Below are positions 11,930 through 31,659 of a stretch of 38,771 bases of DNA, one piece after another. The notes beneath the pieces were generated by a model. That model saw only the letters and a program-made list of their open reading frames with translations, did not search any database and was not told the origin of the DNA. Every line of letters starts with the position of its first letter. Positions within the stretch are counted from its first letter, which is position 1. The DNA is taken from assembly GCA_947627915.1 (NCBI GenBank), contig CANQXT010000007.1, positions 1 through 38,771 of the forward strand, read 5' to 3'. Origin of the DNA: an uncultured Bacilli bacterium. GTDB lineage: Bacteria; Bacillota_I; Bacilli_A; RF39; UBA660. The position numbers and the translations under genes are program-made.

Positions 11930-12046
11930 GTCAAAGAAATTTGCATAAAATAAAAAAAGGAACATTCAGTTTTAGCGAGTTGAATGCCTACCCAATTAAT
12001 ATTGTTTAGACATTTAATTCAATGAAAAATTAAGTGTCATTTTTTA
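11930..12046 (+). ncRNA. unit A: antitoxin-like RNA of a truncated type I TA cassette
   Basis: TTGTAA(11894-11899)-18 nt-TATTAT(11918-11923); 5' hairpin CAAA-GAAA-TTTG; CATTCA/TGAATG hairpin; terminator GACATTTAATT/AATTAAGTGTC + T6; aligns with units B-D. Confidence 0.6.
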
Positions 12047-12078
12047 TTACTACTATCATAACGATAAGGAGATAAATT

Positions 12079-12471
12079 ATGGAACAAATATATAATAAAT
12101 TAGTAAGAGATAAAATACCAGAAATAATTAAATCAAATGGAGAGGAACCAATTACTAGAATCCTAACAGATGACGAATATAAAATTGAATTAGAAAAAAA
12201 ATTAAATGAGGAATATCAAGAAGTTTTAAGTGCAACCGGAAAAGATAGAATATAAGAATTAGCTGATATGTTAGAAATTATAAAATACTTAGTTAAACTT
12301 GAAAATGTTACTTTAGACGATGTCATTGCTATTGCCAATACCAAAAGTTCAAAAAGAGGAGCATTTAACGAAAAAATATTTTTAGAAAAAGTATTAAAAA
12401 ATGATCAAATTTTATTAAGGCACTTTATAAATTATTACTCACACTTTTATGGTTCAAATAAGAAGACTTGA
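12079..12471 (+). pseudogene. MazG-like / phosphoribosyl-ATP pyrophosphohydrolase-like protein interrupted by in-frame TAA at 12253-12255
   Basis: [105 protein letters not shown]; both halves in the same frame, RBS aaggag upstream. Confidence 0.8.
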
Positions 12472-12496
12472 TAAAAGCACACTTTTATGTTATTAT
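12468..12496 (+). promoter_or_regulatory. promoter of unit B antisense RNA
   Basis: TTGATA-17 nt-TATTAT; equivalent boxes at 12933-12961 (unit C, TTGATA-17-TATTAT) and 13320-13348 (unit D, TTGATA-17-TATATT). Confidence 0.75.
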
Positions 12497-12502
12497 GAAT
12501 AT

Positions 12503-12614
12503 GCCAAGGAAACTTGCATAAAATAAAAAAGGGAGTACTTAACTTTTTGCTTGTTGAGTACTTACCTAATAAGGGTTTGTACTTAATCTATTGCAGATTG
12601 AGTACTATTTTTTT
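12503..12614 (+). ncRNA. unit B antitoxin RNA (candidate)
   Basis: Promoter 12468-12496; 5' hairpin CAAG-GAAA-CTTG; hairpin AGTACTTAAC/GTTGAGTACT; terminator GTACTTAATCT/AGATTGAGTAC + T7; antisense to 3' part of toxin B mRNA. Confidence 0.7.
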
Positions 12615-12694
12615 ATACATAGAATCATCAATGAGACTATTAATAAAATGATAATTAATATTAGAAATGAGATTAATAAATCTTTTTTCTTCAT
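12605..12694 (-). CDS. unit B hydrophobic peptide, candidate type I toxin: MKKKDLLISFLILIIILLIVSLMILCIKK (29 aa)
   Basis: ATG preceded by AAAGGAGG 9 nt upstream; -10 TATACT (12764-12759); near-identical peptide in unit C with mostly synonymous differences; absent from the supplied ORF track because of size. Confidence 0.75.
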   Translation of the reverse strand: MKKKDLLISFLILIIILLIVSLMILCIKK

Positions 12695-12967
12695 AATATC
12701 AAGCCTCCTTTCCAAAAGAAAGTTGGCAAGTACTCAACAGTTAAGTTTCCCTACTAAAAGTATAACAAACATTTGTGCGAAAAATAATATATTTTATTAA
12801 AAAAATTTGACAATTTAGAAAGTAAAAATTATATTAACTAACTTTTTCTGTTGCTTAAAAATTATTGGACGTTTTCCTTTAAAGAATCAGATTGATTGTT
12901 ACTCATACTTTTGTACTTTGAGTATAGAATACTTGATAAGAGCACACTTTTATGTTATTATGTATTT

Positions 12968-13077
12968 GTCAAGGAAACTTGCATAAAATAAAATGGGAAG
13001 ACTTAACTTTGCCGAGTTGAGTACTTGCCCTTAAGTGGTAAGCACTTAATCTATGCTAGATTGAGTGCTATTTCTTT
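12968..13077 (+). ncRNA. unit C antitoxin RNA (candidate)
   Basis: Promoter TTGATA-17-TATTAT (12933-12961); CAAG-GAAA-CTTG; ACTTAAC/GTTGAGT hairpin; terminator AGCACTTAATCTA-tgc-TAGATTGAGTGCT + T-rich tract. Confidence 0.7.
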
Positions 13078-13157
13078 ATACATAGAATCATTACAGAGAC
13101 TATTAATAAAATGATAATTAGTATTAGAAATGAGATTAATAAATCTTTTTTCTTCAT
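13068..13157 (-). CDS. unit C hydrophobic peptide, candidate type I toxin: MKKKDLLISFLILIIILLIVSVMILCIKK (29 aa)
   Basis: SD GGGAGG; promoter TTGCAT(13252-13247)-17-TATAAT(13229-13224); one amino-acid difference from unit B. Confidence 0.78.
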   Translation of the reverse strand: MKKKDLLISFLILIIILLIVSVMILCIKK

Positions 13158-13354
13158 AATATCAAGCCTCCCTTCTTTTTATGAAGTTTGGCAAGCACTC
13201 AACAATTAAGTTTCCCTATAAAAATTATACCAAACTTTTGTTCTTAATGCAATCTGCTTTATAAAGAAATTAGGACTATTTAGAAAACACACTTTATCCT
13301 GAGTTTGAGTATAGAATACTTGATAAAAGTACACTTTTATGTTATATTGAATAT

Positions 13355-13466
13355 GTCAAGGAAACTTGCATAAAATAAAAAAGGATACATTTGATTACTG
13401 GAATCAGATGTTATCCCTTATTGGTTGCATCTGAAATCAACGATTGTTGAAATCAGATGTTTTTTC
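13355..13466 (+). ncRNA. unit D antitoxin RNA (candidate)
   Basis: Promoter TTGATA-17-TATATT (13320-13348); CAAG-GAAA-CTTG; long hairpin GGATACATTTGATT/AATCAGATGTTATCC; terminator CATCTGAAATCAAC/GTTGAAATCAGATG + T6. Confidence 0.7.
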
Positions 13467-13543
13467 TATTTTAGAAGTAAAATAATTACAACTAAGAATA
13501 GGAGTAATATTATAATAAATTGAGAAAATTCTCTTTTCGTCAT
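13466..13543 (-). CDS. unit D hydrophobic peptide, candidate type I toxin: MTKREFSQFIIILLLFLVVIILLLK (25 aa)
   Basis: SD AGGTGGTGAT; promoter TTGTAT(13649-13644)-17-TATAAT(13626-13621); same architecture as units B/C but diverged sequence. Confidence 0.75.
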   Translation of the reverse strand: MTKREFSQFIIILLLFLVVIILLLK

Positions 13544-13704
13544 AAATATCACCACCTTTCTTTTATCTTATGATAATTGAAAGGGAAAACATCTGATATA
13601 TTCCAAATGTATCCATTAGTATTATACCAAACATTTGTTCTTTATACAATGTTTATTTATATTTTTATAATATTATTTAAATAAAAAAATAAGGTTTAAA
13701 AAAA

Positions 13705-28956: not shown

Positions 28957-31380
28957 TTAATTATTTTCTTCTTCTTTCTTTAAAACAATAGCATTTATTT
29001 GATATTTATTTTCTAAAGCATTTATTTTTAAATCTTCAATAAATAATGTTGCTTTAAAATCTTTTATAGAACTTTCAATGGCATTTTTTAATTTATCTTC
29101 AACAGAGATATCTAATGATTCAACAACTGTTTTTAAAGATAAATTATTATTAGATTTTTCTCCTCTTACAAGACTAATTATTTCACACATTAAATCACCA
29201 TATTTTTGTTCTTCCTTAAAATCATATTTTAATTCTTCTATTTCAGTTAAATGAATAGATTTCTTTGTATGATATATTACAGAGAATATTTCTTCAGTAA
29301 TAAATGGGAAGAAAATACTAAAGTCTTGTAATAATTTATATAACAACATATAAACAGTTTTTTGACCACTATAACGAGGTATTACCCCAAATTCTTCAGG
29401 TCTATATAAACGATGTTTAACTATTTCAATATAATTATCACAGAAATTCCAGAAGAATTTTTCTAAAGTATTTAAAGCTAAACCTATTTCATATTTTTCT
29501 AAATAATTAATAAATTCTTTTTCCATATTTTGGAAAGAACCTATTATCCATTTATCCACATATTCAAAATCATTAAATTCTTTATCTTCATAATCTTCTA
29601 AATGCATTTCAATAAATTTAGCGACATTCCAAATCTTATTAATTAATTTTTTACCTCTTAATAAAGTTTCTTCACTAAAAGTAATATCTGTACCTAATCT
29701 ACCTGATGCTGCCCAATAACGAATAACATCAGCAGAATATTCTTTAATAATATCAATTGGTTCTACTTTACTATTACCTTTACTTTTACTTATTTTTTCA
29801 CCCTTACTGGCCATAACAAAACCAGAAATCATCACATTATCCCAAGGTTTAATACCAAAATGATAAAAACTTTTAACAATAGTATAGAAATCCCAAGTTC
29901 TAATTATTTCAGAAGCATTAGTTCTTAAACTCATTGGTTTTAATATATCTTCATAATTATCTTTTTCTCCATAACGCATATTAATAAGTGGCGTTACAGA
30001 AGAAGTTGCCCAAGTATCCATTACATCAGTTTCTGGAATAAAGGAAGTACAACCACATTTTGGACATTTACTTTCTCTTGGTTTATCAATTAAAGGATTA
30101 ACTGGTAAATCTTCTTTGTGAGCAAATATTGGTTCTTGACATTTTTCACAATACCATACTGGGAAGGGAACACCAAAATATCTTTGTCTTGAGATACACC
30201 AATCCCAAGCAATATTATTAACCCATTCTTCATATCTGGTATACATATATTTTGGATACCAATTAATTTCTTTACCTATCTTTAAGAAATCTTCTTTATG
30301 ATTCATTATATCAATAAACCATTGTTTCATAACGGCATATTCGACTTCTTTACCACATCTTTCGTGGGTTTGAACTTCGTGTTCTAATTCTTCTATTTTT
30401 AAAACATAACCTTGTTCTTGTAAATCCTCAATGATTTGTTTTCTTGCTTCTTTGATTTTTAATCCCCCATAGTTAGGAACAGAATCAATAATTTTACCAT
30501 CATCAGTAAATATATATTTAAGAGGTAAATTATATTTTTTCCACCATTCTATATCGGTTTGATCTCCAAAAGTACAGCACATAACAACACCAGTACCTTT
30601 ATCAATAGCTACTTTTTCATCACCCATTATTGGAACATCTACATTAATAACTGGAATATGGGCTTTCTTACCAATTAAATGTTTATGTTCTTCATCTAAA
30701 GGATTAACAAAAACACATACGATAGCAGGTAATAATTCTGGTCTTGTAGTAGCAATAATAAATTCTTCATTATCTTCAACAGTTTTAAATTTAAGATAAT
30801 TAAAAGTTGTTTTAATAGTCTTAGTTTCTAATTCGGCTTGAGCAATAGAAGTTAAACATTCATTACACCAAAGAGCAGGACTTTCTTTATGATAACAATG
30901 ATTCTTACTAATTAAATCTAAAAAAGAAGTTTGACTTATTTTAATTGTTTCTGGACTAACTGTTTTATAATGAATATTCCAGTCAGTACTTACACCAAGT
31001 TTACTAAATAAATCTTGAAATTCAGCTTCATATTTATCAGTTGTTGCATAACATAATTTAGAAAATTCTTCTCTACCTATTTCGTGGGCTTTTTTACCTT
31101 GTTCTTTTTCAACTAATCTTTCACTAGGTAAACCGTTATCATCAAAACCAAAGGGATAAAAAACATTATAACCCATCATTCTTTTATATCTAGCAATCAT
31201 TTCCGCTTGACTATAAGAGAATATATGACCAATATGAATTTTACCATTAACAGTTGGAGGAGGTGTATCAATAGAATATACCTTTCTCTTATCTACTTTA
31301 AATTCATATATTTTATTTTCTTGCCAGTAATTTAACCATTTTTCTTCTTTTTCTAAAGCATTATATTTCTTATCTAACAT
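28957..31380 (-). CDS. valS: valyl-tRNA synthetase
   Basis: PPPTVNGKIHIGHIFSY (HIGH), GEKISKSKGNSKVEP (KMSKS), DWCISRQRYFGVPFPVWYC. Confidence 0.95.
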   Translation of the reverse strand: MLDKKYNALEKEEKWLNYWQENKIYEFKVDKRKVYSIDTPPPTVNGKIHIGHIFSYSQAEMIARYKRMMGYNVFYPFGFDDNGLPSERLVEKEQGKKAHEIGREEFSKLCYATTDKYEAEFQDLFSKLGVSTDWNIHYKTVSPETIKISQTSFLDLISKNHCYHKESPALWCNECLTSIAQAELETKTIKTTFNYLKFKTVEDNEEFIIATTRPELLPAIVCVFVNPLDEEHKHLIGKKAHIPVINVDVPIMGDEKVAIDKGTGVVMCCTFGDQTDIEWWKKYNLPLKYIFTDDGKIIDSVPNYGGLKIKEARKQIIEDLQEQGYVLKIEELEHEVQTHERCGKEVEYAVMKQWFIDIMNHKEDFLKIGKEINWYPKYMYTRYEEWVNNIAWDWCISRQRYFGVPFPVWYCEKCQEPIFAHKEDLPVNPLIDKPRESKCPKCGCTSFIPETDVMDTWATSSVTPLINMRYGEKDNYEDILKPMSLRTNASEIIRTWDFYTIVKSFYHFGIKPWDNVMISGFVMASKGEKISKSKGNSKVEPIDIIKEYSADVIRYWAASGRLGTDITFSEETLLRGKKLINKIWNVAKFIEMHLEDYEDKEFNDFEYVDKWIIGSFQNMEKEFINYLEKYEIGLALNTLEKFFWNFCDNYIEIVKHRLYRPEEFGVIPRYSGQKTVYMLLYKLLQDFSIFFPFITEEIFSVIYHTKKSIHLTEIEELKYDFKEEQKYGDLMCEIISLVRGEKSNNNLSLKTVVESLDISVEDKLKNAIESSIKDFKATLFIEDLKINALENKYQINAIVLKKEEENN

Positions 31381-31394
31381 TTTCTTCCTTCTTT

Positions 31395-31615
31395 CTAAAA
31401 AAAATTCACCCTTATCTAAAGGATGAACTTAAGTCCATGGTACCACCTTAATTTATACTTTTAAGTATACACTTTGAAACTTTAACGCAGTTATACGTAT
31501 TTTCTAAAATTAGAAAACAAGCTCATAAGCTACCTTCAATAACCTTTAATACAAATTTTCACCAACCATTTGCTCTCTAAAATTAAATAGTTATTTACTC
31601 CTCTTCTTCACAGCT
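31395..31615 (-). promoter_or_regulatory. T-box leader upstream of valS
   Basis: Minus strand AATTAAGGTGGTACCATGG; terminator TTCATCC..AGGGTGAA + TTTTTTT; possible specifier GTA (Val) in ATTGAAGGTAGC. Confidence 0.85.
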
Positions 31616-31659
31616 TTTCCTTATTATAACATATGTCTTTTTATTGCACAATTAACTTT

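Follow-up and report, generated by a model that had tools for sequence, protein, structure and literature searches.

The par system of pAD1 (RNA I/RNA II, Fst) has convergent promoters, a toxin mRNA of ~230 nt, and a hydrophobic toxin of ~30 amino acids (PMC7472228). In this system, a 5′-UH sequesters the 5′ end of the toxin mRNA for stability, and the SD is masked by an adjacent 5′ stem-loop (PMC7472228, PMC5608710). A 5′-3′ long-distance interaction is also present in aapA/IsoA of Helicobacter pylori, whose 225-nt mRNA contains a 90-nt ORF and CU-rich anti-SDs, one of them inside the ORF. The 3′ end of aapA3 carries an anti-SD, and the 5′-3′ helix masks the SD; removal of this end exposes the SD and activates the mRNA (PMC6733600). 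The full-length hok mRNA (hok/Sok, plasmid R1) is folded inert until 3′ processing (PMC4147584). Finally, txpA/RatA and bsrG/SR4 of Bacillus subtilis are convergent systems in which the overlap is confined to the 3′ region of the toxin mRNA and the antitoxin lacks complementarity to the RBS (PMC4147584).

We analyzed a window of 38,771 nucleotides from an uncultured Bacilli bacterium (GenBank assembly GCA_947627915.1, contig CANQXT010000007.1), together with relatives of three units (B, C, and D) that it contains. Like par, these units have convergent promoters, a toxin mRNA and a hydrophobic toxin of similar size, and, as predicted here, a local 5′ stem-loop over the SD plus a helix that sequesters the mRNA 5′ end. 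They differ in that the direct repeats of par pair the antitoxin with the toxin translation start, whereas we detected no antitoxin complementarity to the toxin RBS region (z = 0.09, 60 units). Because the repeats of the present units are inverted, not direct, the 5′ parts of toxin and antitoxin are alike rather than complementary, unlike those of par. In addition, par has a shared bidirectional terminator, as opposed to two separate terminators here, and the Fst P/D/S/TxxxG transmembrane motif occurs in 0 of the 131 distinct toxin peptides, which are mostly 25 to 30 amino acids long with an SD.

The overlap and the antitoxin of the units resemble those of txpA/RatA and bsrG/SR4, but the toxins are shorter and have no family match. 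For the two Bacillus systems, the literature that we consulted describes no toxin mRNA closed end to end by a 5′ arm resembling the antitoxin. With aapA/IsoA, the units share the long-distance interaction, the mRNA and ORF sizes, and the anti-SDs; yet the SD lies outside the helix here, and antisense complementarity of the antitoxin is restricted to the 3′ UTR. In comparison with hok/Sok, they lack a long leader that is structured and carries its own ORF (mok), and the antitoxin target is the 3′ arm itself. Going by these predicted features, the units have traits in common with par/Fst, txpA/RatA, and aapA, yet belong to none of them, because they lack the Fst motif, RBS-pairing repeats, a shared terminator, RBS release on trimming in the folding model, and a family match. 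We place the family among the convergent type I toxin-antitoxin systems, as a distinct variant with putative toxicity.

Organization of the units in the window

Units B, C, and D are predicted convergent type I toxin-antitoxin-like loci, each with an ORF for a hydrophobic peptide of 25 to 29 amino acids on the minus strand and an antisense RNA on the plus strand that ends at the toxin stop codon. The minus strand of each unit carries a promoter (extended −10 or sigma-70-like), a 5′ UTR of ~57 to 72 nt, an SD, and the ORF of 25 or 29 codons. The predicted antitoxin promoter, on the plus strand, reads TTGATA-17-TATTAT or TATATT, with TG ahead of the −10. From its 5′ end, the predicted antitoxin RNA has a short GAAA-loop hairpin, then an A-rich linker and hairpin 1, and finally hairpin 2, the terminator. 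Antitoxin hairpin 1 and the toxin terminator are reverse complements of each other; the toxin mRNA (predicted length, ~229 nt) ends there, and the antitoxin RNA (~115 nt) continues past it to hairpin 2, where it ends. In 162/162 units, the T-run of the antitoxin is positioned at the stop codon of the toxin (median, −2 nt), so that the antisense region corresponds to the toxin 3′ UTR (~82 nt), and the RBS is not reached. Antitoxin promoters were predicted for B, C, and D and terminators were called for B and C; the leader is kept in all units.

In unit B, the toxin −10 hexamer TATACT (12759 to 12764, minus strand), recognized by sequence and spacing, is preceded by TGT, making it an extended −10. 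The 5′ arm of the toxin mRNA, AGGGAAACTTAACTGTTGAGTACTTGCC, runs from the predicted +1 (12725 to 12752, minus strand; sequence, MFE structure, and inverted repeat I11). It is followed in the 5′ UTR by a local anti-SD hairpin, AACTTTCTTTTGGAAAGGAGGC (12703 to 12724, minus strand; MFE structure), and by the toxin ORF, MKKKDLLISFLILIIILLIVSLMILCIKK, which occupies 12605 to 12694 (minus strand) including the stop codon. The 3′ arm is the toxin terminator hairpin (12531 to 12566, minus strand), with its U-tract at 12521 to 12530; read on the plus strand, the 3′ arm region is antitoxin hairpin 1. The antitoxin promoter (TTGATA-17-TATTAT, TG before the −10) is predicted at 12468 to 12496 and the antitoxin RNA at 12498 to 12612, both on the plus strand and the latter with approximate ends; terminator hairpin 2 spans 12579 to 12605.

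Unit C has its 5′ arm at 13190 to 13217 and its 3′ arm, the terminator hairpin, at 12995 to 13030, both on the minus strand and identified by sequence and MFE structure. Its toxin ORF, MKKKDLLISFLILIIILLIVSVMILCIKK, covers 13068 to 13157 (minus strand, stop codon included), and its predicted antitoxin RNA approximately 12963 to 13077 (plus strand), with the promoter at 12933 to 12961 and the terminator hairpin at 13041 to 13069. On the same evidence, the arms of unit D lie at 13583 to 13614 (5′ arm, GGATACATTTGGAATATATCAGATGTTTTCCC) and 13383 to 13417 (3′ arm and terminator hairpin) of the minus strand. They flank the toxin ORF MTKREFSQFIIILLLFLVVIILLLK (13466 to 13543, minus strand, with the stop codon), inside which an anti-SD, CTCCT, is found at 13500 to 13504. 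The predicted antitoxin RNA of unit D extends from about 13350 to 13468 on the plus strand (promoter, 13320 to 13348; hairpin 2, 13428 to 13459).

Unit A is an orphan antitoxin-like remnant (11931 to 12050, plus strand) in which only the C-terminal codons of the toxin are left. A MazG-like ORF of 58 amino acids begins at 12079, where the toxin stood, and is interrupted by an in-frame stop; a further ORF follows at 12268 to 12471. The antisense of the toxin CTCCT, AGGAG, may now serve as the SD of the MazG-like ORF.

The best conserved part of the units in all classes is the antitoxin leader, TCAAGGAAACTTGCATAAAATAAA (12504 to 12527, 12969 to 12992, and 13356 to 13379), which folds into the GAAA-loop hairpin and A-rich linker. 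Toxin promoters (e.g., 13621 to 13640) have a conserved context, ACAAATGTTTGnTATAAT, within which the near-palindromic CAAATGTTTG sits directly upstream of the −10. Elsewhere in the window, a T-box leader (31416 to 31620, minus strand) immediately precedes a valS-like gene (28957 to 31380) for a class I aminoacyl-tRNA synthetase.

A large family with six classes

We collected 229 distinct related units, 162 of which have a usable toxin ORF and a predicted TSS. According to the antitoxin hairpin, they fall into six classes (A1, A2, B, D, K, and P) that largely match toxin sequence groups. Units B and C belong to class B, unit D belongs to class D, and unit A is of class A1. Matches to the promoter and leader of the antitoxin occur in 37 of the 38 genomes from the genus, with up to 17 per genome, and the leader is present in 204/293 sampled genomes of the taxonomic family, representing 117 of 152 genera. 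Outside this family, a leader match was seen in one sampled genome of the class (G595:C32:11731-11777), attributable to transfer or contamination.

Rfam covariance models had no match within the units, Pfam and NCBIfam gave no toxin match at the curated cutoff, and the three-unit region had no match in plasmid and phage collections. A single pattern match on a viral contig (L152) was discarded, as it lacked any unit sequence.

Predicted pairing between the ends of the toxin mRNA

According to the original prediction, an inverted repeat would pair the 5′ end of each toxin mRNA with its 3′ terminator strand. The stretches it quoted for units B, C, and D are indeed present at those positions of the minus strand, and a repeat finder recovered the inverted pairs 12552-12566/12725-12739 (I11), 13371-13393/13604-13626 (I2), and 13403-13419/13581-13597 (I6). 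When the three predicted mRNAs were folded with RNAfold, each MFE structure contained the 5′-3′ helix, with energies of −66.2 kcal/mol for B, −70.2 kcal/mol for C, and −77.2 kcal/mol for D; these energies come from an RNA-only, equilibrium thermodynamic model applied to predicted transcript ends and TSSs. Relative to an ensemble in which pairs spanning >150 nt are disallowed, closure contributes 18.5 kcal/mol in B, 17.9 kcal/mol in C, and 11.6 kcal/mol in D. The arm had also been placed at the predicted TSS. Its first G lies 6 to 7 nt past the −10 hexamer in 94/106 units, a spacing that puts the start of the arm at the predicted +1.

The helix has a pairing probability of >0.5 in 105/106 units and in 153 of the 162 predicted toxin mRNAs of the larger set, counts that represent nonindependent events because the units are related. 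On average, closure is worth 15.3 kcal/mol, and both transcript ends are buried in the model. Against shuffled 5′ arms, the pairing of the 5′ arm with its own 3′ arm has a mean z of −8.8 (106 units; least extreme, −4.3), and the inverted orientation pairs better than the direct one in 106/106 units. The duplex between a unit's own arms averages −34.5 kcal/mol, versus −9 to −26 kcal/mol with partners from other classes, and the unit's own pairing beats every other-class arm in 93% of units.

That pairing persists although the sequences diverge, as proposed from units B to D, extends to all six classes. RNAalifold detected 23 to 29 long-range pairs by class, with standard pairs in 3,691 of 3,815 alignment cells summed over classes (96.8%) and two-sided changes in each class. 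Between classes, the pairs change in concert (fraction of standard pairs, 0.80 with the own arm versus 0.70 with that of another class). When partners were shuffled within classes on the joint alignment, pair counts did not drop; the covariation seen in these alignments is mostly between classes. Within-class permutation did worsen the duplex energy (own, −35.0; permuted, −33.4; 0/2,000 permutations as low), a difference to which relatedness may contribute. These comparisons show a predicted helix that is specific to each class, conserved, and maintained according to the rules of RNA pairing.

The 5′ arm as a copy of antitoxin hairpin 1

The toxin 5′ UTR had also been proposed to copy the first antitoxin hairpin and to compete with it for the same 3′ site, a view that our analysis supports. 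The 5′ arm is antitoxin hairpin 1 minus its loop. Among transitions that distinguish the two, 308 keep a G·U pair and 52 break it. Counted as distinct contexts, which are partly dependent, the ratio is 90:35 in favor of G·U-compatible change (binomial P, ~10⁻⁶). Class D has no such bias (7:9). The full duplex of the antitoxin with the 3′ arm (approximately −70 kcal/mol) is far stronger than that of the 5′ arm with the 3′ arm (approximately −34 kcal/mol), and the terminator loop of 7 to 9 nt stays unpaired in the closed fold (0.64 to 0.83).

In isolation, the 5′ arms of classes A1, A2, B, K, and P fold with −3.0 to −5.2, compared with −2.2 to −4.3 for shuffled sequences; the arm of class D forms a clear local hairpin (−6.4 versus −2.1). 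Local hairpin formation is therefore an unlikely source of the G·U bias for most classes in this model, class D excepted. The bias toward G·U-compatible change, in spite of a lone 5′ arm that folds little better than shuffled sequences in most classes, suggests that the RNA helix is under selection. By the same measures, the predicted closed form is weakest in class D, where the bias is missing and a local 5′ hairpin folds better than shuffled sequences.

The loops of hairpin 1 are highly variable (178 units), with 32 variants among the 44 class D units, and the stems are conserved. This pattern would be expected if a third strand, namely, the 5′ arm, constrains the stems. The loops may act as identity tags between paralogues; they are shared in 0/19 same-class pairs from the same genome, but sharing is also rare between genomes (5/234 pairs). 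Hairpin 2 of the antitoxin (12579 to 12605, 13041 to 13069, and 13428 to 13459) resembles hairpin 1 of its own unit, which provides a second possible partner for the toxin 5′ arm just past the stop codon. The 5′ arm pairs with this second partner when the trimmed mRNA of unit B is folded.

Accessibility of the RBS

The toxin mRNA had been likened to hok and aapA1, in which long-distance pairing keeps the full-length mRNA inert. The pairing itself holds for these units, but a direct block of translation by the helix is not supported, given that the SD lies outside it in the predicted fold. The expectation that 3′ truncation would activate translation finds no backing in the model, where the cost of opening the RBS goes from 11.3 kcal/mol in the full mRNA to 13.5 kcal/mol after removal of 35 nt. 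With no release of the RBS on trimming, thermodynamics alone gives no ground to expect activation. The SD is predicted to be held by the separate local anti-SD hairpin of the 5′ UTR in both the closed and trimmed mRNAs. In contrast, the cost of opening the first 28 nt drops from 23 kcal/mol for the full mRNA to ~9 kcal/mol after the same 35-nt removal; the predicted effect is thus a sealing of both ends rather than direct masking of the SD. The helix may be unrelated to translation, going by these folds.

In classes A1, A2, P, and D, the toxin ORF carries a conserved anti-SD, CTCCT, built on the rare codon CTC and placed at either codon 14 or codon 20. It is found in 100% of the P, 70% of the A1, 64% of the A2, and 39% of the D ORFs and in none of those of B and K; synonymous recoding gives an expectation of <1%. 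The leucine codon CTC makes up 8.7% of leucine codons in toxin ORFs, compared with 0.5% in the genes of the window. The in-ORF anti-SD is similar to the CU-rich one of the aapA3 ORF (PMC6733600) and supports a multilayer block of translation.

Alternative explanations

Several other scenarios may explain the pairing. One is a translational lock of the hok/aapA type, in which the 5′-3′ helix closes the RBS and 3′ trimming turns translation on. The layout is that of aapA3, with a 225-nt mRNA, a short peptide, a 5′-3′ interaction, and a truncated active form (PMC6733600); the in-ORF anti-SD is another shared trait, and trimming does free the 5′ arm. Yet trimming does not lower the opening cost of the RBS, the SD remains in its local hairpin with or without it, and the main target of the antitoxin would be removed at the same time, so that we consider this scenario unlikely. 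Alternatively, the helix could be a stability element alone, the counterpart of the RNA I 5′-UH of par, and the likeness to the antitoxin would simply follow from having the terminator as a partner. The 5′-UH is essential for RNA I stability and adjoins the SD-masking 5′-SL (PMC7472228, PMC5608710), and the element order of RNA I is also predicted in these units. By itself, however, this explanation leaves the consistent omission of the loop and the G·U bias on the toxin side unaccounted for, and it is possible but doubtful.

Explanations that do without a long-range RNA function are far less probable. If the 5′ arm were a duplicated antitoxin hairpin maintained by common descent or gene conversion, it would form a local hairpin only. 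The two sequences are clearly related, and gene conversion is easy between closely spaced inverted repeats. Nevertheless, in five classes the arm folds locally with little advantage over shuffled sequences, the unit's own pairing beats within-class permutation, and the differences between the copies are stable across species (TTG[G/A]GTG in 20/23 K units), pointing to an absence of ongoing conversion; we regard this explanation as very unlikely. The arms could also be DNA-level inverted repeats, either termini of a small mobile element or operators at both promoters, as suggested by repeats of ~30 bp placed ~200 bp apart and by the many copies per genome. We rejected mobile-element repeats and DNA operators, a reading that we find hardly credible, because homology runs past the repeats through both promoters, with the antitoxin leader best conserved, because the repeat sequence varies among the six classes, and because a G·U bias is a property of RNA.

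Model of an end-sealed toxin mRNA

We favor, with a probability of roughly 0.6, a dormant type I toxin mRNA that is sealed at its ends by a loop-less mimic of its antitoxin, leaving the terminator loop free as the antitoxin landing site. In this model, toxin mRNA and antitoxin RNA would be transcribed convergently from a chromosomal type I locus, and nucleotides 1 to ~28 of the toxin mRNA would pair with the terminator stem, burying both ends. The seal would block 5′ and 3′ nucleases as well as any ribosome standby site, giving rise to a stable dormant pool, with the RBS probably held by the local anti-SD hairpin and, in four classes, by the in-ORF CUCCU too. As the 5′ arm would be a loop-less, G·U-weakened copy of antitoxin hairpin 1, the terminator loop would stay single stranded in the closed mRNA. 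The antitoxin could nucleate on this loop and drive out the 5′ arm, and the long duplex that results would be a possible substrate of RNase III. Should antitoxin levels fall, the sealed pool would persist and might be activated by end processing or by opening of the helix; activation is the least certain step of the mechanism. If the antitoxin binds before the toxin mRNA is completed, the closed form could be a minor species.

A more elaborate version, to which we give less than even odds and which we put forward tentatively, is that the weakened, loop-less mimic locks the 3′ end with the loop as a toehold and is displaced by the genuine antitoxin alone, which commits the mRNA to destruction. 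Several classes of such a switch, pairing poorly with one another, would then operate in one chromosome.

These units add a large type I-like family of at least six classes, apparently undescribed in the open-access literature that we searched, in uncultured gut Bacilli with small genomes. The comparative data set is big enough to distinguish RNA pairing from mere descent, and the predicted end-to-end closure of their toxin mRNAs would be an independent case beyond hok and aapA. The antitoxin-like 5′ arm raises a testable question, namely, whether a weakened copy of an antitoxin may serve as a displaceable lock within the toxin mRNA.
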